Shown: positions 2,735 through 12,967 of the stretch, in pieces | Layout: the number at the start of each line of letters is the position of its first letter | How positions within the stretch are numbered: the stretch's first letter is position 1 | Source of the DNA: Gimibacter soli | GTDB taxonomy: Bacteria; Pseudomonadota; Alphaproteobacteria; Sphingomonadales; Kordiimonadaceae | Direction: 5' to 3' | Assembly (NCBI RefSeq): GCF_028463845.1 | Contig: NZ_CP116805.1 | Span: forward strand, 744,001-808,000 | Length of the DNA: 64,000 bases | The notes under the pieces: generated by a model | What the model was told of the DNA's origin: nothing | The model's database searches: none | What the model saw: the letters and a program-made list of their open reading frames with translations, nothing else | Program-made: the position numbers and the translations under genes

Positions 2735-3613
2735 TTATTCGCCAAGCTTGCCGGCAAGGGCCTGCTGGGCGGCGATGGTCGCGCGGGTACGGTCGTAAAG
2801 CGCCAAGAGCTTCTGGCCCGAACGACCTGCGGCCTGCAGCTCATCAAGCATGTCGGCAGCTTTCATTTCCTGCATGTCGCTCGTCGAGACTGTCCATTCG
2901 CCTTCTTCGGCTTCTGCAGCCTGCGAGGAAGCTTCCGAACCGGTCGCGATGCCGACTTCCACAGCCATCGGATCGGCTTCCGAGAGGGCAGCGAGGCTGG
3001 CAAGTGTCAGGAACATGCTGCCGGCAGCGGGCTGGGTGTCGTTCAGCTCGGCTGCAGTCGGGGCAGCGGCGGCGGTCTCTTCACCCACGCGGCCGAGATA
3101 GGCCAGGCGGTTGATGGTGGCGAGATTGACGCCTTCGGCGTTCGTCTCAACCAGAAGCGCCTGATCGAAGGTCGAAACGCGCTTCGAAATCGCCGCCATG
3201 GCGGTGTTCAGGAGCGTGCCGGCTTCTTCGTTGCCCTGACGGATCGCAGCCATTTTCTTGGCGCGCTTGTCAGCCGGCATGGAGGCGAGCTTGGCTTCGG
3301 CGGCACTGAAGCAGTTGACGCTTTCCTGCACGGCAGCTTCGACCTTTTCGAAGTTTGCGGCTTCGTTGTCGATGGCGGTGCTGTAGGCGTTCAGGCGGGC
3401 CTTGGCATCGTTTTCGTATTTCGCGTGCATGGCGGTCACGGTTTCGCCGGCGTCCTTGCCATTGCCATTGATGGCAGCAGTGGCAATTTCACGTGCCTTG
3501 GTGAGGCTGGCGTCGCAGCCCATGCCGGCGCTGGCGGGCATGGTCCCTGCAGCGGCAAGCACGGTAGCACCGGCGAGCGCGCGGATCAGGGTTGATTTGG
3601 TCGTCTTGAACAT
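2735..3613 (-). CDS. Secreted alpha-helical protein of unknown function
   Basis: 292 residues with a clear signal peptide (about residues 1-29, cleavage near PASA). The mature part is rich in A, E, K and short of aromatic residues, with long predicted amphipathic helices, and has a cysteine close to the mature N-terminus (MGCDAS) and one more mid-protein (VNCFSA). An acidic, low-complexity stretch (SQAAEAEEGEW) sits near the C-terminus. I do not recognise a family. The start at 3613 has GGGGAG upstream; an in-frame ATG at 3724 would add residues with no signal-like character. The gene has its own terminator and no operon partners, so context gives no function. Confidence 0.7.
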   Translation of the reverse strand: MFKTTKSTLIRALAGATVLAAAGTMPASAGMGCDASLTKAREIATAAINGNGKDAGETVTAMHAKYENDAKARLNAYSTAIDNEAANFEKVEAAVQESVNCFSAAEAKLASMPADKRAKKMAAIRQGNEEAGTLLNTAMAAISKRVSTFDQALLVETNAEGVNLATINRLAYLGRVGEETAAAAPTAAELNDTQPAAGSMFLTLASLAALSEADPMAVEVGIATGSEASSQAAEAEEGEWTVSTSDMQEMKAADMLDELQAAGRSGQKLLALYDRTRATIAAQQALAGKLGE

Positions 3614-4012: not shown

Positions 4013-4780
4013 CTATCGGGGCGTCCGGTAACTGTCGATGATGGCGGTGATCCGGCCATCGCTTTTCATCCGGGCCAGAATAGTGTCGAACCGGTCGCGC
4101 AGGTTTCGGTCAGCGAAGCAGAGCGCATGGGGCGAAGGCGGGAAGTCAGCAGCGATCACATAGGGGCGCTTGTCCAGTTCATCGCCGTAAAGCGTGACCC
4201 AGAGGTGGTCGAGCGCCCAATAGTCGCCAAGATAGGCGACAACGCGCCCGCGGATGATGAGCCGGAGCGCCATATAATATTCGGTGGCGATGATCGGCTG
4301 TTCCTTCTGGAGGTCCAGTCCCTCGAGATGAGGGCCAAGCACGGTCGCCGCCTTCGGGAACATGGCGAAACGCTTTCCGGCAAGGTCTGCCGGTGTCTTG
4401 ACGGCGTCTGCAAATTCACGGGCAACCACCAGTCCGTCATGCCAGTGGTTGAAAGGCTTGCTCGCGGCGCAGGCTGGATTGGGTGCCACGGTGACGGACG
4501 CATTCACAAGCTTGTCGGCCAGCAGGCCATCAAGCCGGGAAAGTGGGACGTGAATGAAGGTTGTCGTTGCACCGAGCTCGTTAAAGGCCGCCCGGATGAT
4601 GTCGATATCCATGCCGCTGCTCGGATTCTCGATCACGTAAGGCGGCACCGAATTCATGATGCCGACAGTGACATGGCCCGGTGTCGTAAGGACTTCCGCA
4701 GCGGCCATCCGCCATGGGGCAAAGATCGCAATTAAAGCGACGAGCCACTGCCGCATGTCTGTCGATTGGCGCTTGGTCAT
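4013..4780 (-). CDS. Orphan periplasmic substrate-binding protein (SBP_bac_3-like)
   Basis: 255 residues with an N-terminal signal segment (WLVALIAIFAPWRMAAAEV). It then follows the layout of family 3 solute-binding proteins: VTVGIMNSVPPYV in the first strand, SGMDIDIIRAAFNELG in the first lobe, DLAGKRFAMFP at the hinge and GRVVAYLGDYWAL in the second lobe. The family binds amino acids or similar small polar molecules for ABC importers or sensor kinases. No permease or ATPase gene is nearby, so it may feed a remote transporter or a sensor. ATG at 4756 (MRQWLVAL) is a plausible alternative start; the one at 4780 has GGAGG but rather far upstream. Confidence 0.72.
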   Translation of the reverse strand: MTKRQSTDMRQWLVALIAIFAPWRMAAAEVLTTPGHVTVGIMNSVPPYVIENPSSGMDIDIIRAAFNELGATTTFIHVPLSRLDGLLADKLVNASVTVAPNPACAASKPFNHWHDGLVVAREFADAVKTPADLAGKRFAMFPKAATVLGPHLEGLDLQKEQPIIATEYYMALRLIIRGRVVAYLGDYWALDHLWVTLYGDELDKRPYVIAADFPPSPHALCFADRNLRDRFDTILARMKSDGRITAIIDSYRTPR

Positions 4781-4857
4781 TCCGGCGGTAATCCTCCGTA
4801 TGGCCGACCCCTTCTCCGTGATCGTACCTGACGCGCCCCGCCTGTCAATGCGGGGCC

Positions 4858-5466
4858 TTAGCGCAGGCGCTCATTCTGCGGCAGTTTCAACCCCCAGATG
4901 ATGCCGGCTGCCCGGATTGCGAAACCGACCGAAACGGCAGCCCAAAGGGCGATGGGCCCGGCAAGGCCGAGGGCGGCAAAAAGGCAATAGGCGGCGGAGC
5001 CCGCAATCGCGGCGGTCGCATAAATTTCCTGCCGGAAAACGAACGGCTTGTCGCCGGCGATCACATCACGGATGAGGCCGCCGACCACGCCCGTGGTGGT
5101 GCCGAGCATGATGGCGATGAGCGGATCACCGGTGACGATCATGGTTTTCTGCGCGCCGACGACGGCAAAGAGCGCAAGCCCGAAGGCATCGGCCCACAGA
5201 AGAAGCGCCCGCCGGCTTTCCACATGCGGGGCGGCGGCCCATGCCACGATGGTAGCGGCGAGTGTCAGCCAGATGGCGCGGGTGTCCTCCACCCAGAAGA
5301 CGGGGACATCAAGGACCAGGTCGCGAACTGTGCCGCCGCCAACGGCGGGGAGAAGTGCGATCACCATCACGCCGACGATATCGAGATTCTGCCGGATCGC
5401 CGAAATGGCCCCGGAAAGGGCGAAGACGAAGATGCCGAAACTGTCCAGAAACATCATGATGGTCAT
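4858..5466 (-). CDS. TRIC/YicG-type (UPF0126) membrane channel protein
   Basis: 202 residues with seven hydrophobic helices. The two homologous halves each carry the family motif of paired glycines: AVGGGTVRDLVLD near residue 40 and GVVGGLIRDVIAG near residue 125. This is the prokaryotic homologue of trimeric intracellular cation channels and passes monovalent cations across the inner membrane. The start at 5466 was chosen for its AGGGAAG ribosome site; upstream in-frame ATG codons would add a non-hydrophobic tail of about 50 residues. It is divergent from the TonB-domain gene. Confidence 0.85.
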   Translation of the reverse strand: MTIMMFLDSFGIFVFALSGAISAIRQNLDIVGVMVIALLPAVGGGTVRDLVLDVPVFWVEDTRAIWLTLAATIVAWAAAPHVESRRALLLWADAFGLALFAVVGAQKTMIVTGDPLIAIMLGTTTGVVGGLIRDVIAGDKPFVFRQEIYATAAIAGSAAYCLFAALGLAGPIALWAAVSVGFAIRAAGIIWGLKLPQNERLR

Positions 5467-5624
5467 AGAAGGCTTCCCTGAATGCGTACCGGGCCGACAT
5501 GCATGCCACAGCTCTGTGGTGGCGACTTTACTTCTTTTTAAACAAACGATGGTTAATGAAGGCCCCAGATGCGCGTCTTTAAAAGAAGGCGCAACCGAAT
5601 TCTGTGACAACACGGAGAAACCTG

Positions 5625-6305
5625 ATGATCAAGAGAAGCCTTCGTCTTGTGGTGGCTGCCGCATTCCTTGCTGCCACGGGCGGCGTGCAGGCCGCGACCG
5701 ATATTGCCGAGTGGCAGGACGCGACCGTGAAGGCGCTGGTCGCCAAGCAGCGCTATCCGCGCACGGCGCTGGATGCGAGCGCGGAGGGCACCGTGAAGGT
5801 CCGCCTCGCGGTGGCGCCCTCGGGCGATGTGATGGGCTACGAGATCGTGGAATCGTCCGGCTATGCCGTCCTTGACGCCTCGGTCCTTGATCTTCTGGCG
5901 CGGGTCAGCCCGCTGCCGGCGCTGCCGGTGCAGGAACAGGGTATCTCGGTTGTCGTGCCGCTGACCTACAAGCTGGACCGTGCGGTGATGGCGGCGGATG
6001 TGGCTGTGGCCGATCCTGCCCAGTCGCTGCAGGAATGGCGCCGCGCGGCGGCGCGTGCCTTTGCCAAGGTGCAGGAATATCCGGTCGAGCTTTACAATCA
6101 GGGTGTTGAAGGCACGGCGCGCATTCAGGTTGCCGTTGACGCGCTGGGCAATATCGTATCGCAGGAACTGATCCAGTCATCAGGCAATGCCATGCTTGAT
6201 GAAGAATCGATGAGCATGCTGCGCCGCGTGGGGCTTTTGCCCGAACTGCCTGAAGGCACCGATTCGCTGCGCTTCACCCTGCCGGTGACCTACAGAATCC
6301 GCTGA
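5625..6305 (+). CDS. Periplasmic protein with two TonB C-terminal domains
   Basis: 226 residues. A signal peptide (residues 1-24, ending GVQA) is followed by two tandem TonB-C-like domains, about 30-120 and 130-225. Each has the signature YP..(A)...G.V.V...V...G.V...E...SSG...LD followed by a P-L-P-LP end. True TonB has one such domain, a Pro-rich spacer and an N-terminal membrane anchor linked to ExbB/ExbD. Here the anchor looks cleavable and there is no Pro-rich spacer, so energy transduction is doubtful; a soluble periplasmic binding or scaffold role is more likely. The start at 5625 has GGAGAAACCTG upstream. The next gene begins 81 bases later. Confidence 0.75.
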   Translation: MIKRSLRLVVAAAFLAATGGVQAATDIAEWQDATVKALVAKQRYPRTALDASAEGTVKVRLAVAPSGDVMGYEIVESSGYAVLDASVLDLLARVSPLPALPVQEQGISVVVPLTYKLDRAVMAADVAVADPAQSLQEWRRAAARAFAKVQEYPVELYNQGVEGTARIQVAVDALGNIVSQELIQSSGNAMLDEESMSMLRRVGLLPELPEGTDSLRFTLPVTYRIR

Positions 6306-6386
6306 TCGCTGCGGCAGTTGTTGGCTTCGGCCCCAAAGTTTGGCAGTCTGGGGTGTGTCGGATTGCTCTAACTTGCGGGGAAGACC

Positions 6387-7289
6387 ATGAAATCCACAAT
6401 GCGGCGTTTCGCCTGCATTCTCTCAGCAGTGGCCTTTCCGGTCTTCCTTTGTGTCCCGTCCGCGCTCGGTGACGACAGCGCAAAACCCCTGTTCGACCGT
6501 GGCAAGCTTTTGGCCACTGGCGGTGTATCGCAGGTAGAAGGTGCGGGCGGCGCCGGCCTCACTACCTGGGCGCTGATCGGCGGTTATGGCAGCGACCATG
6601 GCCTTGGCCTCACGGCGCACGGCACGCTCGTTCCCCTTGATGATTTCACCTTCCGCGCCGCGGGGCTGGCGCTTGGCGTGTTTGACCGGCTGGAGGTGAG
6701 CTACAGCCGTCAGTGGTTCGATACCGGCAGCACGGGGGCGGCCCTCGGGCTTGGGGAAGATTTCACCTTCGGGCAGGATATTTTCGGCGCCAAGCTCCGG
6801 ATCGCGGGCGATGCGGTCTACGATCAGGATCGCTGGTTGCCGCAGATTGCCGTTGGCCTGCAGCACAAGCGCGCCAAGCAGGGGGCCATCCTTGCTGCCG
6901 TTGGTGCCGCCCACGACAAGGGCACGGATTTCTATATCGCCGCCACCAAGGTTTTCCTGAAATACAGCCTTCTCGCCAATGCTACGGTGCGCTTCACCAA
7001 GGCCAATCAGTTTGGCCTTCTGGGGTTTGGCAGCGCCGATGACGGCTACAAGACGACCGTTGAAGGGTCGCTCGCGTGGCTCATCACCGATCACTGGGTG
7101 GCGGGGGTCGACTATCGCACCAAGCCCGATAATCTGGCCTTCGCGAAGGAAGAAGATGCCATGGCCGCCTATGTTGCCTGGTTCCCTTCAAAACATGTGT
7201 CGGTAACGGTGGGCTACGCCGACCTTGGCGAGATCGCCCTGCAGGATGACCAGCAGGGGCTTTATCTTTCGCTCCAGATGGGGTTCTGA
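6387..7289 (+). CDS. DUF3034 family protein (outer-membrane beta-barrel-like)
   Basis: 300 residues with a signal peptide (to about residue 28). The conserved DUF3034 opening is visible (GKLLATGGVSQVEGAGGAGL), followed by alternating hydrophobic/polar segments ending in aromatic residues, and the last residue is Phe (YLSLQMGF). This suggests a transmembrane beta-barrel in the outer membrane. The function of the family is unknown. It is the first gene of a tight unit: only 2 bases separate its stop from the globin start, and the kinase and cupredoxin overlap onward, so it probably works with them at the cell envelope. Confidence 0.8.
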   Translation: MKSTMRRFACILSAVAFPVFLCVPSALGDDSAKPLFDRGKLLATGGVSQVEGAGGAGLTTWALIGGYGSDHGLGLTAHGTLVPLDDFTFRAAGLALGVFDRLEVSYSRQWFDTGSTGAALGLGEDFTFGQDIFGAKLRIAGDAVYDQDRWLPQIAVGLQHKRAKQGAILAAVGAAHDKGTDFYIAATKVFLKYSLLANATVRFTKANQFGLLGFGSADDGYKTTVEGSLAWLITDHWVAGVDYRTKPDNLAFAKEEDAMAAYVAWFPSKHVSVTVGYADLGEIALQDDQQGLYLSLQMGF

Positions 7290-7291
7290 CC

Positions 7292-7705
7292 ATGCGCATG
7301 GCCATCCAAATCGCACTGTCCCTTCTGTTGATCGCCGCCCCAGCGCACGCCGAAACATTGTTTGAACGGCTCGGCGGGATGGACACGATCACCCGGATTT
7401 CCGACCGCACCATCGATATCGCTGCTGCCGATCCGCTGATCGGCCCGCACTGGGAAGAATCGAATCTGGTGCGGGTGAAGGCAAAACTCGCCGAGCAGAT
7501 TTGCGAACTCGCGGGCGGGCCCTGCAAATACACCGGCAACGACATGGTGCAGGTGCACAAGCCCTTCAAATTCACCAATGCCGATTTCAACCGGCTGGTC
7601 GAAAATCTGCAGCAGGCGATGGATGAAAGCGACATCGACCATGCCACACAGAACCGCCTTCTGGCCCTTCTGGCCCCCATGCAGCGCGAGATCGTGACCC
7701 GGTGA
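7292..7705 (+). CDS. Exported group 1 truncated haemoglobin
   Basis: 137 residues. A signal peptide (1-20, ending AHA) precedes a truncated-globin domain: LFERLGG, ADPLIGP, LAEQICELAGGP, YTGNDMVQVHK and FNRLVENLQQAM. His89 in VQVHK aligns with the proximal haem ligand (F8). The usual FY pair of helix B is replaced by Thr40-Ile41, so the distal Tyr B10 is absent, and the usual CD1 FF is His53-Trp54. Most trHbs are cytoplasmic; export points to a periplasmic haem protein, perhaps for NO, O2 or electron transfer. It lies between DUF3034 and the kinase, with which its stop overlaps by one base. Confidence 0.85.
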   Translation: MRMAIQIALSLLLIAAPAHAETLFERLGGMDTITRISDRTIDIAAADPLIGPHWEESNLVRVKAKLAEQICELAGGPCKYTGNDMVQVHKPFKFTNADFNRLVENLQQAMDESDIDHATQNRLLALLAPMQREIVTR

Positions 7706-9651
7706 TGACAGAGCGCGCCGTGAACAGCGAGGCAGCCGAGACCAGATCATCGCCGTGGCGGCGGATGCTGGTGTCCGTTCGTGCCAAGCTGTTCCTCGGT
7801 TTTGCGGCGATGGGGCTTCTGGTGGTCGGGGTCGGCCTTTATGCCTATGTGGCCATCGGCCGGGCCGGCGAGATTGTGGAAGACATCTACAACCGCCCCC
7901 TGATGGCGATCAATTTCACGCGCGCCGCAAGCTTCGACTTTTCGCAGATGCAGGCGCGCTATCTGAAGCTTCGTGAACGGGGCGAGAAAAGCGGCAAGTC
8001 GCTTGATGAGCTGCACGAACTGGTACATGACGACCTCGCGGTCGCGCATGAGCGTGCACTTACTGACCGCTCCCGCCGCATGATCGAACAGCTGCGCCGT
8101 GATATTGATGCGTGGGTCTATACGGTAAAGGGGCTGCTGATCACGCCCGATCCGCGTGCGGTCGCCAACCTTGATGCCACCACCGACGACATTATCGAAC
8201 GCTTCGATATCGTGGTGGAATTGCAGTCGGCCGCGGGGTTTGAGGAGCGCCAGAAGGCCGTCACCGAGATTGCCACCACCGTGCGGGTGAATGTGGCGGT
8301 GACGGGCGTCGCGCTTATGCTGGCGATTGCGGTGACGCTGCTGCTTGCCCGGCTGCTGCTCGGGCCGCTGCTGTCGGCGTCCGAATCTGCGTCACGGATT
8401 GCCAAGGGGGAGCTCGACACGCCGATCCCCGAAGGCGGCGCGGATGAAACAGGGCGGCTGCTACGCGCCCTTCGCGTGATGCAGAAGTCGATCATCGATC
8501 TGGTGTCGCGCGAGAAATACCAGAAACAGAAAGCCGAAGACCGGCTGCTCGATGCGCTTGCCAACAGCCGCGAGGCCATCATCATCGTCGATGCGGACGG
8601 GTTGATCGTGATGGTGAACGACACGGCCTCGGCACTTTTCAGCCGCCTCGGGCCGCTGGTCGGCGAACGCTTCAACCGGCTTTTCTATACGAACGGTGTG
8701 CCGGTGGCCGAAGAGGACCGCGCGGTCGCCGTGGCGTCAGCAAGCAGCGAGCCCGGTGCCGCGGTCGAAATGCAGCTTGAGAACGGCAACTGGTTGCGCC
8801 ACAGCCGCAGCCGCACGCGTGATGGCGGCCTTTTCGCGCTGTGGTCCGATATCACCGAAGTGAAGGCACGCGAAGTGCAGCTCCTTGTCGCCAAGCAGGA
8901 AGCCGAGGCCGCGAACGAGGTGAAATCGCGCTTCCTGTCGAACATGAGCCACGAGCTGAGGACCCCCCTCAATGCCATCATCGGCTTTGCGGATGTGATC
9001 GTCACTGAAACGCACGAGCAGGAGAGGCTTGCGGGCATCACCGGCCATGCGAGGGAAATCCAGTCGGGCGGCGACCATCTCCTGCGCATCATCAATAACG
9101 TGCTCGATCTCACCCGTCATGATCATGGCAAGGTCATTGTCCGCTTGCAGCGAACGGACCTAGGCGCACTGCTGGAACAATGCCGGGGGATGATGATAGC
9201 CGAAGCCGAAGCGCGCGGTATCCGGCTGCGCTATCAGGAGCCGGTCGGCACGGCCTGGAGCAAGATAGACCCTGCCCAGATTCTGCAAAGCCTTCTGAAC
9301 ATCCTGTCGAATGCCATCAAATTCTCGCATGATGGTGCGGCGGTGGATATTTCCATCGATACCCATATCGGCAACGAGCATCATGTCCGCATCAGCGACG
9401 CGGGCATCGGGATCGATCCCAAGGATATCCCGGTGGCACTGACCGCCTTCGGGCAGGTGGAATCAAGCCGGGACCGCCATTATGAGGGCACCGGCCTTGG
9501 CCTCACCCTTGCCAAAGCGCTTATCGAGCAGAATGGCGGGCGGCTTATCCTTGAAAGCGAGCTCGGGGTCGGTACGATGGTGACCGTTGCCTTGTCGGTG
9601 GACGGCGAGGAATCGCAAACCGTGGAATTCGATGATGACGACTTTATCTAG
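7705..9651 (+). CDS. Membrane-bound PAS sensor histidine kinase
   Basis: 648 residues. TM1 (about 26-50) and TM2 (about 195-220) enclose a periplasmic helical domain of about 140 residues, like the four-helix bundles of chemoreceptors. Then come HAMP (220-270), a PAS-like domain (about 280-385), a HisKA domain with the H-box SHELRTPLN (His416) and an HATPase_c domain with N (LNILSNAIKF), G1 (DAGIGI) and G2 (GTGLGL) boxes. No receiver domain is fused. The C-terminus is acidic (EFDDDDFI). It starts in TGATG overlap with the globin stop; a GTG at 7702 is an alternative. The cupredoxin gene starts inside its 3' end. It probably senses a periplasmic redox or gas signal handled by its neighbours; the partner regulator is not adjacent. 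Confidence 0.88.
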   Translation: MTERAVNSEAAETRSSPWRRMLVSVRAKLFLGFAAMGLLVVGVGLYAYVAIGRAGEIVEDIYNRPLMAINFTRAASFDFSQMQARYLKLRERGEKSGKSLDELHELVHDDLAVAHERALTDRSRRMIEQLRRDIDAWVYTVKGLLITPDPRAVANLDATTDDIIERFDIVVELQSAAGFEERQKAVTEIATTVRVNVAVTGVALMLAIAVTLLLARLLLGPLLSASESASRIAKGELDTPIPEGGADETGRLLRALRVMQKSIIDLVSREKYQKQKAEDRLLDALANSREAIIIVDADGLIVMVNDTASALFSRLGPLVGERFNRLFYTNGVPVAEEDRAVAVASASSEPGAAVEMQLENGNWLRHSRSRTRDGGLFALWSDITEVKAREVQLLVAKQEAEAANEVKSRFLSNMSHELRTPLNAIIGFADVIVTETHEQERLAGITGHAREIQSGGDHLLRIINNVLDLTRHDHGKVIVRLQRTDLGALLEQCRGMMIAEAEARGIRLRYQEPVGTAWSKIDPAQILQSLLNILSNAIKFSHDGAAVDISIDTHIGNEHHVRISDAGIGIDPKDIPVALTAFGQVESSRDRHYEGTGLGLTLAKALIEQNGGRLILESELGVGTMVTVALSVDGEESQTVEFDDDDFI

Positions 9652-9961
9652 ATCAGCCCTTCTCCGCCTCGCCGCCCTTCTCACGCTGGGCGCGCCGGCG
9701 TGGGCGGCGGATCATGTGGTCAGCCAGCAGGGCAGGCGTTTTCACCCGAGCGAAATTGCCATCAAGGCTGGCGACACCGTCACCATCTCGAACGATGACG
9801 AGTTCCTCCACCATGTCTATATCAAGGGGGAAGGGATGGAATACGATTCTGGCGGGCAGCCGATCGGCACCTCGCTCACCATCCCTTTTCCTGCAAAGGG
9901 TGTGTTTGAGGTGCGCTGCGACATCCATCCCAAAATGCGGCTGACCGTGACGGTCGAATAA
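9632..9961 (+). CDS. Small periplasmic cupredoxin (methylamine utilisation/plastocyanin-like)
   Basis: 109 residues with a signal peptide (to about residue 26, APAWA). The mature domain has the cupredoxin fold pattern: F-P-S-E-I-A-I-K-A-G-D-T-V, then a His pair (H60/H61 in EFLHHVY), and the C-terminal loop C96-x2-H99-x2-M102, which together form a type 1 copper site. It is likely a periplasmic electron carrier. It overlaps the kinase gene by 20 bases in another frame; ATG 9632 and ATG 9635 are both possible starts. Translational coupling suggests a shared function with the kinase, globin and DUF3034 protein. Confidence 0.85.
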   Translation: MMTTLSRSALLRLAALLTLGAPAWAADHVVSQQGRRFHPSEIAIKAGDTVTISNDDEFLHHVYIKGEGMEYDSGGQPIGTSLTIPFPAKGVFEVRCDIHPKMRLTVTVE

Positions 9962-11304: not shown

Positions 11305-11880
11305 ATGGAGCCAACCGGACGGTCGACAGAAGAGGCAGTGCGCCGCGAAACCCTGAAAGGGGTTGCCGGCAGCCCGAGAATCCTTCTTGTGGAAGACATA
11401 GATTTCATGGCCCGGCTGGTAATGGCGCAACTGCAGGCCGCAGGCTACAAGAGTGTGACAATCGCACATGACGGCGCCGAGGCAATGGAAGCGCTCGTCC
11501 AGAAGCCCTATGACATGCTGATCACTGACTGGATGATGACACCGGTTGGCGGGCGGGAGTTGTGCCATAACCTGCGCCGTGCCGCTGACAGCCCCTGTCC
11601 CGGCATTGCGATCATCGCGGTGTCTGCACATATCGACCACAATGCCATAGATGAAATGCTGAAGGCGGGGGTGGATGAAGTTGTGGCAAAACCCATCGCG
11701 CTTGATGAGCTGCTGAAGCGTGTCCGCACTGTTACCACAGAACCCCGCCAGTTCGTTCGGACCAAAACATATTTCGGACCCGACCGCCGCCGGCGTTACA
11801 AAGCTGACTTCGGTCTAGAGGACCGGCGCAAGACACAGGCCCGCCTCGAAGCCCGTCCGGCCTCGCGCCACGAGCGCTGA
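11305..11880 (+). CDS. Single-domain response regulator with basic C-terminal tail
   Basis: 191 residues. After about 24 poorly conserved residues there is a receiver domain: ILLVED (acidic pocket), D75 in ITDWMMTP as phosphoacceptor, a conserved Ser in AVSAHI and Lys in VVAKPI. After about residue 145 the tail is highly basic (FGPDRRRRYKADFGLEDRRK) and has no known output domain; such FGPDRRR tails recur in alphaproteobacterial CheY-like proteins. The start at 11305 has CAGGGA upstream; a TTG at 11290 is less likely. No kinase is adjacent; the histidine kinase 1.7 kb upstream lacks its own regulator and is a conceivable partner. Confidence 0.8.
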   Translation: MEPTGRSTEEAVRRETLKGVAGSPRILLVEDIDFMARLVMAQLQAAGYKSVTIAHDGAEAMEALVQKPYDMLITDWMMTPVGGRELCHNLRRAADSPCPGIAIIAVSAHIDHNAIDEMLKAGVDEVVAKPIALDELLKRVRTVTTEPRQFVRTKTYFGPDRRRRYKADFGLEDRRKTQARLEARPASRHER

Positions 11881-11951: not shown

Positions 11952-12167
11952 ATGGGCGACCGGGAAAAGATCGAGGAACGCCTCGTCACGCTTGAAACGC
12001 GGCTCGCCTTTCAGGACGAGACGATCGAGACGCTCAATAGCGTGGTGAAGGACCAGTGGGCGGAAATCGACCGGCTGCAGCGCATGCTATCCCGTTTCGA
12101 TGGTCGCCTTGCTGAAATTGAAGACAATATCGAGATCGCCCCGCCGCAGAAGCCGCCGCATTATTGA
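11952..12167 (+). CDS. slyX: SlyX family protein
   Basis: A 71-residue coiled-coil protein with the SlyX pattern: EERLVTLETRLAFQDETIETLN in front, a heptad-rich middle and the conserved proline-rich C-terminus ending PPHY. The role is unknown; it was named from a location next to slyD in E. coli. The last 7 bases overlap the end of the convergent binding-protein gene. Confidence 0.85.
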   Translation: MGDREKIEERLVTLETRLAFQDETIETLNSVVKDQWAEIDRLQRMLSRFDGRLAEIEDNIEIAPPQKPPHY

Positions 12168-12967
12168 GGCGGTACGTTCCCATCGGCCTCTGCCTTCGGC
12201 AGCCCGTCGAGGAGCGTTTTCAGGAGGCCCGGATCGATAGACTTCGGGGCAGCAAGCCAGGGCGAATTGGCGGCGGTGATCGGCATCCTGACGATCAGGA
12301 GATCACCGATAGGCGTGCCGTCTTCATCCCTGTCGGAAAGGTCGCCCGGAATTTCGGACAGGAAATCCACCCGCCCGCGCAGCAGCATCTGCTCGGCAAG
12401 GCCGTGATGCGCTTCTGACACCTCGATGATCCTGTCTTCCGAAAAGCCGAAATCCCGAAGTGCCTGGCATTGGGCCGAGCTTTTGACGCAAGCGGCCTTG
12501 CAGGTGCTTTGCATGATATCGTCACGGGTCATGGATTCCTGCGGCGATCCGCGCCGCGCCACCAGATGGATCGCCTCGCCCCGTTCCATCGAGATCAGCC
12601 AGTGGAACAGGTTTTCGCGCGCCGGGGTGCGCAGCAAGTTGAAAATCAGCGCATTGTCGCGCTGTTGCACCATGCGGTAGGCGCGGCTCCAGGGCACGAA
12701 GACAAAGGCATAGCGGAGCCCGGTTCCATCGAGATAGGCGCTGATGCGGCGGCGATCAGCCTCCGATTGGGTGCGGTCGCTACCCTGGCCTATATCCAGC
12801 GAGGTGAGGTTGCCGAAAACGATCAGGTCCGGCTGTGCGTTCGGCCCGTCGGCCATGGTGGAAGTCAAGGGGGTCGGCTGCCCGGGTGCAGCCCCGGCCA
12901 GCATCAGGAAAGCCGCAACCGCAGCCAGCGTCCGTCCGATCCGTCCTGCTGTGCGCGACGGGATCAT
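12161..12967 (-). CDS. Orphan periplasmic substrate-binding-like protein
   Basis: 268 residues with a signal peptide (ending around GAAPG). The body resembles family 3 solute-binding proteins: a first lobe with a strand-helix start, FVFVPWSRAYRMVQQRDNALIFNLLRTPAR, an ERGEAIHLVARRG segment and a second-lobe GRVDFLSEIPG. Two extra cysteines (STCKAACVKSSAQC) are unusual for the family and could form disulfides. No ABC permease or ATPase is nearby. It overlaps the slyX stop by 7 bases. The ligand is unknown. Confidence 0.65.
   Translation of the reverse strand: MIPSRTAGRIGRTLAAVAAFLMLAGAAPGQPTPLTSTMADGPNAQPDLIVFGNLTSLDIGQGSDRTQSEADRRRISAYLDGTGLRYAFVFVPWSRAYRMVQQRDNALIFNLLRTPARENLFHWLISMERGEAIHLVARRGSPQESMTRDDIMQSTCKAACVKSSAQCQALRDFGFSEDRIIEVSEAHHGLAEQMLLRGRVDFLSEIPGDLSDRDEDGTPIGDLLIVRMPITAANSPWLAAPKSIDPGLLKTLLDGLPKAEADGNVPPQ

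Follow-up and report, generated by a model that had tools for sequence, protein, structure and literature searches.

Several bacterial receptors, including LuxQ, TorS and VirA, work together with a periplasmic binding protein (LuxP, TorT and ChvE, respectively). In such systems the gene for a soluble periplasmic protein lies beside that for a transmembrane receptor, which carries a kinase or another output. In H-NOX and NosP systems, a stand-alone haem protein acts with a separate histidine kinase or GGDEF-EAL partner, and nitric oxide (NO)-selective H-NOX proteins have an apolar pocket. Here we describe a run of four genes from Gimibacter soli, located in a 64,000-nucleotide stretch of contig NZ_CP116805.1 (positions 744,001 to 808,000; hereafter the window). 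The run encodes a DUF3034 protein, an exported group 1 truncated haemoglobin, a membrane histidine kinase with a four-helix (4HB-type) periplasmic sensor, and an exported cupredoxin. It shares with the LuxP-LuxQ group the soluble partner encoded near a receptor, and differs in that this partner is a predicted type 1 copper protein and not a substrate-binding protein; docking to the receptor is a prediction here. With H-NOX and NosP it shares a stand-alone haem protein, an apolar pocket and a separate kinase partner, and it differs in its exported globin, membrane-bound receptor and added copper protein, in a genome without an H-NOX match.

The individual proteins also have described relatives. 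Group 1 truncated haemoglobins such as Mycobacterium tuberculosis HbN, in which the wild-type distal residues are Tyr B10 and Gln E11, share the fold and the haem-binding histidine and gave the top Protein Data Bank (PDB) matches by sequence and by fold; the window family differs in having a signal sequence and a cysteine pair and in lacking Tyr B10 and Gln E11. The cupredoxin has the C-x2-H-x2-M ligand loop of amicyanin/plastocyanin-type cupredoxins, and its nearest PDB chains are a copper nitrite reductase with a cupredoxin-like end and an amicyanin. However, it scores far under the amicyanin equivalog cut-off (30.5 versus 110.2 bits) and is linked to receptors. A run annotated in Caballeronia grimmiae (NZ_CP084273) as DUF3034, group 1 truncated hemoglobin, methylamine utilization protein and EAL domain protein is the same module, carrying a long cupredoxin; there a GGDEF-EAL type receptor replaces the window's kinase, and no function is annotated. 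Among the papers listed in searches of an open-access library, judged by title and start of abstract, none describes a cupredoxin-receptor pairing.

With moderate confidence, we read the run as a two-unit envelope signalling module in which a barrel and a globin form one unit, and a cupredoxin and the transmembrane receptor that reads it form the other. Sequence-level support covers the anatomy of the run, two conserved gene pairs, the copper and haem ligands, the swapping of outputs and one natural fusion.

A cupredoxin is the companion of a receptor family with exchangeable outputs

The kinase gave Pfam matches to HisKA (59.5 bits), HATPase (79.7 bits) and HAMP (45.1 bits), with PAS_7 (25.6 bits) and 4HB_MCP_1 (22.7 bits) both below the cut-off of 27. 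The HisKA H-box and the N, G1 and G2 motifs of the HATPase domain, which mark histidine kinases, are visible in the translation; there is no receiver domain, and hydrophobic stretches at residues 21-54 and 189-226 bracket the periplasmic part. When the sensor region was searched with phmmer, it matched two GGDEF-EAL proteins, L057 (E 5.5e-15) and L117 (E 9.4e-8), and a methyl-accepting chemotaxis protein (MCP), L097 (E 1.5e-6); L and G numbers are our labels for loci and genomes. A profile made from 13 sensor regions, in which R73, D110, R117 and R182 are invariant, matched 34 of 289 alphaproteobacterial genomes, and 6 of these 34 were among the 11 with DUF3034; the domain recurs mostly without DUF3034. 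A phylum-wide search with the sensor alignment matched 36 of 398 genomes, all matches outside the Alphaproteobacteria scoring below 60 bits. Plasmids gave no match to the window sensor domain and one weak match to one short cupredoxin.

The window cupredoxin is a predicted type 1 copper protein, and its His, Cys, His and Met ligands are all present in 101 of 102 aligned rows and invariant (14/14) in cupredoxin alignment A4. The sensor was found at 100 bits or more in 27 copies among the 289 genomes. In 23 of the 27 a cupredoxin is encoded within 5 kb, and in 17 it is no more than 1 kb away from the sensor domain; without the 4 rows that were part of the profile, the count is 19 of 23. A gene for a soluble periplasmic partner near the receptor is the arrangement seen in binding-protein-coupled receptors. 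Conversely, 24 of 26 cupredoxins scoring at least 100 bits lay near a sensor, in 31 genomes chosen for having one, and the background was low, with 32 cupredoxin matches of at least 80 bits in the 31 whole genomes. The five sensor matches of 50-80 bits had no cupredoxin nearby. At the 20 loci fetched without DUF3034, a cupredoxin was present in 18 (all except L255 and L258). Even at loci lacking DUF3034 and the globin, it is the cupredoxin that specifically accompanies the sensor domain. In L264 (7840-8631, plus strand) and L267 (8286-9080, plus strand), the gene for a DUF4394 protein that begins with a signal-like sequence separates the kinase receptor from its cupredoxin.

Receptors sharing this sensor have diverse outputs. 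Pfam assigned histidine kinases (HK; L025, L026, L056 and L088), a hybrid HK-REC (L255), HK-REC-Hpt proteins (L262, L263, L264, L268 and L271), GGDEF-EAL proteins (L057, L117 and L260), MCPs (L097, L265 and L272) and, in a cupredoxin-linked receptor of L269 (4086-5585, minus strand), a class III adenylate/guanylate cyclase. The outputs of L253, L254, L257, L259, L261, L266, L267 and L270 were assigned by motifs or by similarity to a GGDEF-EAL query, not by Pfam. On a sensor tree of 32 rows, from which L035 (the same contig as L048) and the cut or short L102, L061 and L256 were left out, the five output labels (HK, hybrid HK, GGDEF-EAL, MCP and cyclase) require at least 7 changes versus a minimum of 4. 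MCP needs 3 changes, 2 of them forced by strongly supported branches, and GGDEF-EAL needs 3; exact placements are unsure because six rows have long branches. Since the cupredoxin is the receptor's constant companion across outputs, its most probable target is the receptor and not any one response. The omitted L256 (4923-5579, minus strand) has a 218-residue 4HB sensor frame followed by a separate HisKA frame, adjoining a cupredoxin, and is possibly a split or frameshifted kinase.

In one locus, L026 of genome G014 (4594-6723, minus strand), kinase and cupredoxin are fused in a single 709-residue frame that comprises the sensor, HAMP, PAS, HisKA, HATPase, a hydrophobic segment with a signal-like end (605-630) and a cupredoxin with its ligands. 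If the 605-630 segment crosses the membrane a third time, this cupredoxin would be periplasmic. In L258, from the sister genome G147, the kinase ends immediately after the corresponding RRRGMFGFA, at the expected start of a third membrane segment, and no cupredoxin was found beside the kinase. The fusion is indirect support for binding between cupredoxin and sensor.

The cupredoxins themselves fall into two types, tabulated from 120 frames that include near-copies. Short cupredoxins, ending at most 25 residues past the domain (39 frames), lie by a 4HB receptor in 26 cases, by a 4HB GGDEF-EAL receptor in 3 and by none in 10. The 81 long cupredoxins, with a longer tail, lie by the other GGDEF-EAL receptor in 63 cases, by a 4HB receptor in 1 and by none in 17. 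Cupredoxin type tracks receptor type. Of two long cupredoxins scanned by Pfam, one has a CarboxypepD_reg tail above cut-off; Pfam missed the cupredoxin domain in both, and the profile built here recognised it.

DUF3034 genes are paired with an exported globin

Linkage of DUF3034 to its neighbours was followed in two sets. The first is an even sample of the phylum, with 398 proteobacterial genomes, of which 39 have DUF3034; the second is a pooled set of 137 distinct DUF3034 loci, an uneven sample in which 21 loci have a flank shorter than 4.5 kb. The 80 named loci, the top 80 of at least 512, are uneven as well. All 39 DUF3034 genomes have the exported globin, which adjoins the main DUF3034 copy in 37 fetched regions, in the window and in G342 (L039). 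The exported-globin profile scored at least 122 bits in 41 of the 398 genomes, with the next score at 92, and these 41 are the 39 DUF3034 genomes plus G640 and G478, whose globins have lipoprotein-like starts (by eye) and no module partner within about 8 kb. In the pooled set, the globin is codirectional and within 400 bases of DUF3034 at 132 of 137 loci, the exceptions being L030, L034, L054, L079 and L194. L194 (G409:C3) carries the second DUF3034 copy of its genome, which appears to be broken, with no intact globin frame and an adjacent globin match containing stop codons; an intact pair is found elsewhere in G409.

The AlphaFold model of the DUF3034 protein has 12 strands at modest confidence, with a predicted local distance difference test (pLDDT) score of 71 and values below 50 for the first 62 residues. 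Foldseek placed outer-membrane barrels best, with FapF first (E 8e-8, query TM score [TMq] 0.43) and KdgM at a target TM score (TMt) of 0.85 at 3.3 Å. A signal sequence (by eye), an even strand number and a C-terminal aromatic residue, Phe300, invariant in 20 rows, are as in outer-membrane beta-barrels, and on this model the protein probably sits in the outer membrane. It has no sequence relatives in the PDB (best E 0.85), and its DNA had no match in E. coli genomes.

The globin model (pLDDT 92) matched 1dlw with a TMt of 0.96 and HbN with 0.88, which places it in the Bac_globin/2-on-2 fold; the best PDB match by E-value was 2gl3, the TyrB10Phe/GlnE11Val double mutant of M. tuberculosis HbN. 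Helix positions were mapped onto HbN via alignment. The window globin has F8 His89, Cys71 and Cys78, Ile at B10, Leu at E11 and Trp at CD1; the distal Tyr/Gln found in their place in HbN goes with O2 chemistry and is characteristic of HbN but not of all members of the family. In an alignment of 138 rows, including near-copies, the proximal F8 His is kept in 137 (one gap), the two cysteines in 131 and 130, an apolar B10 residue (V/L/M/I) in 122, E11 L/F/I/V in 137 and CD1 F/W in 136. Among 18 comparison globins, 6 have Tyr B10, none of these with both cysteines, and 5 have both cysteines, all with an apolar B10. By this comparison, the cysteine pair separates the exported family better than the apolar pocket does. 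A hydrophobic stretch precedes the globin domain in 132 of the 138 rows versus 8 of the 18 comparators. The location and conservation of Cys71 and Cys78 make a disulphide between them likely. Another globin type, with the cysteine pair, Leu B10, Val E11 and Arg CD1, occurs in L239, L240 and L241, in genomes without a DUF3034 match.

Receptors and arrangements at DUF3034 loci

A cupredoxin is encoded within 5 kb at 96 of the 137 DUF3034 loci, and receptors were counted over the same distance. The 4HB sensor type was found at 15, two of these with a GGDEF-EAL output (L057 and L117), and a GGDEF-EAL protein at 68, of which 66 are the other GGDEF-EAL receptor once L057 and L117 are removed; 56 loci have neither receptor. 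The original prediction had proposed an envelope module of haem and copper proteins with a membrane sensor, and these counts support it, except that the kinase is not a constant part. The commoner receptor is dCache_3-HAMP-GGDEF-EAL in three Pfam-scanned proteins (L084, L093 and L032), the other dCache_3 labels being given by similarity to L084; an 807-residue frame in L112 without a Pfam match was excluded from the counts. For the 116 loci flanked by 4.5 kb or more in both directions, the counts are 111 for the globin, 82 for the cupredoxin, 12 for the 4HB type, 61 for GGDEF-EAL and 45 for neither receptor. In the even sample with its 39 DUF3034 genomes, a 4HB sensor at DUF3034 was found in the window alone. 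The cupredoxin lies downstream in the kinase type and in Caballeronia, divergently upstream in, for example, Brevundimonas and Sphingomonas, and codirectionally upstream in much of the phylum sample.

Neighbours of the pair were also scanned at the 20 loci without DUF3034 (20 genes in all). A CCP_MauG di-haem peroxidase gene adjoins the cupredoxin gene in L265 and L272 (codirectional) and in L270 (convergent), and lies two genes off in L261. In L259 the gene for a catalase-like protein overlaps the start of the cupredoxin gene, and L260 has a shortened, probably non-functional globin. The other neighbours are an aspartyl protease, two DUF4394 proteins, a beta-lactamase-family protein, a peptidase M48, a Met-zincin, an SBP_bac_3 protein, a regulator, a glutamate synthase, a reaction-centre cytochrome (L261) and five proteins without a match.

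Proposed mechanism and alternative explanations

The coupling of cupredoxin and receptor is well supported by the genomics; for the relay chemistry, we infer a direct docking, a direction of flow, a contact between globin and cupredoxin, and a class of signal. A small molecule (NO, peroxide, O2 or another haem ligand or oxidant) would enter the periplasm and react at the globin haem, and this reaction would alter the cupredoxin's redox or metal state. The four-helix periplasmic domain of the receptor might then bind one cupredoxin state, the signal travelling via HAMP and PAS to the kinase, which would phosphorylate a regulator encoded elsewhere. In our best reading, the exported haem protein is a variable third member, a globin here and a di-haem peroxidase or catalase-like protein at some other loci, and serves as the redox or ligand partner of the cupredoxin. 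Cupredoxins donate electrons to cytochrome c peroxidases, and it is this known transfer that suggests a redox link between haem protein and cupredoxin.

Several observations weigh against this two-unit relay. Unit 1 can act without unit 2, because the 56 loci without a receptor include 39, of the 137, that lack the cupredoxin as well. Four of the 27 strong sensors (G056:C18, G147, G187, which is near a contig end, and G087) have no nearby cupredoxin, and part of the pairing is inheritance, since the query sensor alignment was drawn from module loci. A haem neighbour was seen at 6 of the 20 loci without DUF3034 and at none of the other 14 among the genes scanned; one of the six is the degenerate globin of L260, and the L261 stretch has a photosynthetic reaction-centre cytochrome nearby. 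The apolar B10 is not special to the exported-globin family, occurring without the cysteine pair in 7 of the 18 comparison globins. As clues to NO, neither H-NOX (HNOB domain; no match) nor copper nitrite reductase (sub-threshold matches only) passed threshold in the G. soli genome, which also has no CCP_MauG; on these grounds, the genome indicates no particular signal.

The cupredoxin might instead report copper status, with the receptor telling the apo from the copper-loaded form, and with globin and barrel as co-regulated clients, in haem or copper handling, off the signal path. Such a role would fit both the near-invariant copper ligands and the cupredoxin-sensor pair that persists without DUF3034 and, at most of the 20 loci, without a haem protein seen. 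We nonetheless find it rather doubtful: no copper transporter, chaperone or efflux family was among the 20 neighbours scanned, a minority of all neighbours, and exported haem proteins recur beside the cupredoxin instead. The conserved apolar pocket, without the Tyr/Gln of HbN, and the HK and GGDEF-EAL outputs, which are also those of H-NOX operons, would agree with a gas sensor in which the globin binds NO (or CO) over O2 and itself contacts the receptor, the cupredoxin only keeping the haem iron reduced. That is unlikely, given that the receptor without DUF3034 retains the cupredoxin and not the globin, and that no nitrite reductase rises above threshold in the genome.

The CCP_MauG genes beside or near cupredoxins (L261, L265, L270 and L272), together with the established electron donation to cytochrome c peroxidases, could also mark a respiratory or detoxification cluster in which the cupredoxin serves a haem peroxidase or similar enzyme and a locally acquired sensor regulates it. 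However, the receptor is a steadier partner of the cupredoxin than any enzyme seen, across kinds of output and with one fusion, and we regard such a cluster as improbable. Chance or lineage-specific clustering without shared function could account for the exact window order being confined to the same genus and L056, the remaining loci being arranged differently; it is hardly credible beside a globin in 39 of 39 genomes, a cupredoxin by 23 of 27 sensors, and cupredoxin types that track receptor types. Rare co-occurrence, which would have refuted the original prediction, was not what the neighbourhood survey showed for DUF3034 with the globin (132 of 137 loci) or for the cupredoxin (96 of 137). 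The survey disfavours chance, and because the DUF3034-globin pair recurs so widely, the four-gene run is not a chance assembly.

Our preferred two-unit module can be extended, much more tentatively, to a previously undescribed class of receptors read out via a dedicated blue-copper protein. The cupredoxin would relay between an exported haem protein (an apolar-pocket globin, a di-haem peroxidase or a catalase-like protein) and a four-helix or dCache_3 sensor, and one front end would be mounted on kinases, phosphorelays, cyclic di-GMP enzymes, chemoreceptors and an adenylate/guanylate cyclase. If true, this would offer an output-independent handle on bacterial sensing of periplasmic redox or haem-ligand chemistry, would point to a role for DUF3034, a widespread family of exported globins and the proteins now annotated as methylamine utilization proteins, and would make the signal testable by output swapping.

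Gene organization and neighbouring genes

Coordinates and Pfam matches confirmed the tight plus-strand run of the original prediction (Table 1). DUF3034 and globin genes are separated by 2 bases (7290-7291), globin and kinase genes overlap by 1 base (TGA 7703-7705, ATG 7705; an alternative kinase start, GTG 7702, is possible), and kinase and cupredoxin genes by 20 bases (cupredoxin ATG 9632, kinase stop ending at 9651). Three exported products beside a membrane kinase with a periplasmic domain had likewise been foreseen; Sec-type signal sequences are recognizable by eye on DUF3034 (ALG|DD), globin (AHA|ET) and cupredoxin (AWA|AD), and the kinase has the two bracketing hydrophobic stretches. 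The spacing and conservation suggest that the four genes are co-transcribed. A consensus scan, for sigma-70 type only, found no promoter-like site before 6387. The nearest named genome is that of Pseudokordiimonas caeni (DUF3034 92% identical), where the four-gene order is identical (L048).

Table 1. Genes and regions of the four-gene run, in window positions
Feature	Position	Strand	Description	Evidence
DUF3034 protein	6387..7289	+	Signal sequence and predicted 12-stranded outer-membrane beta-barrel, Phe at C-terminus	PF11231 329 bits; AlphaFold; Foldseek
Exported group 1 truncated haemoglobin	7292..7705	+		PF01152 54.5 bits; alignment; residue table; model
Membrane histidine kinase (4HB-type periplasmic sensor, HAMP, PAS, HisKA, HATPase)	7705..9651	+		Pfam; hydrophobic stretches; motifs
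Kinase sensor region, residues 1-212	7705..8340	+	Common to receptors with other outputs	phmmer
Exported short cupredoxin	9632..9961	+	Predicted type 1 copper ligands H60, C96, H99, M102	PF00127 24.3 bits (cut-off 21.2); ligand alignment

Downstream, positions 11305-11880 (plus strand) encode a single-domain response regulator with a basic tail containing FGPDRRRR, behind a decarboxylase gene on the opposite strand. The suggestion that it is the kinase's partner was not supported: the only further genome found with a close relative by DUF3034 belongs to the same genus, and the neighbourhood survey led us to reject it as part of a conserved module, though phosphotransfer to it might still occur. 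Five genes checked beside kinases of the window type are not regulators; a regulator does adjoin the hybrid kinase of L271, outside DUF3034 loci.

Upstream on the same strand, 5604-6305 encodes an exported protein with two TonB_C domains (Pfam) and no obvious membrane anchor beyond its signal sequence. It was rejected as a module part, since just one further genome, from the same genus, showed an adjacent copy; at two further loci a TonB-like gene lies at greater distance from DUF3034. The flanking genes at 4013-4780 and 12161-12967 (both minus strand) encode proteins with signal-like starts, one with an SBP_bac_3 match and the other weakly similar, below threshold, to an ectoine-binding protein. 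A further protein, encoded at 2735-3613 (minus strand), is without a Pfam match and has a weak, sub-threshold resemblance to TagQ.

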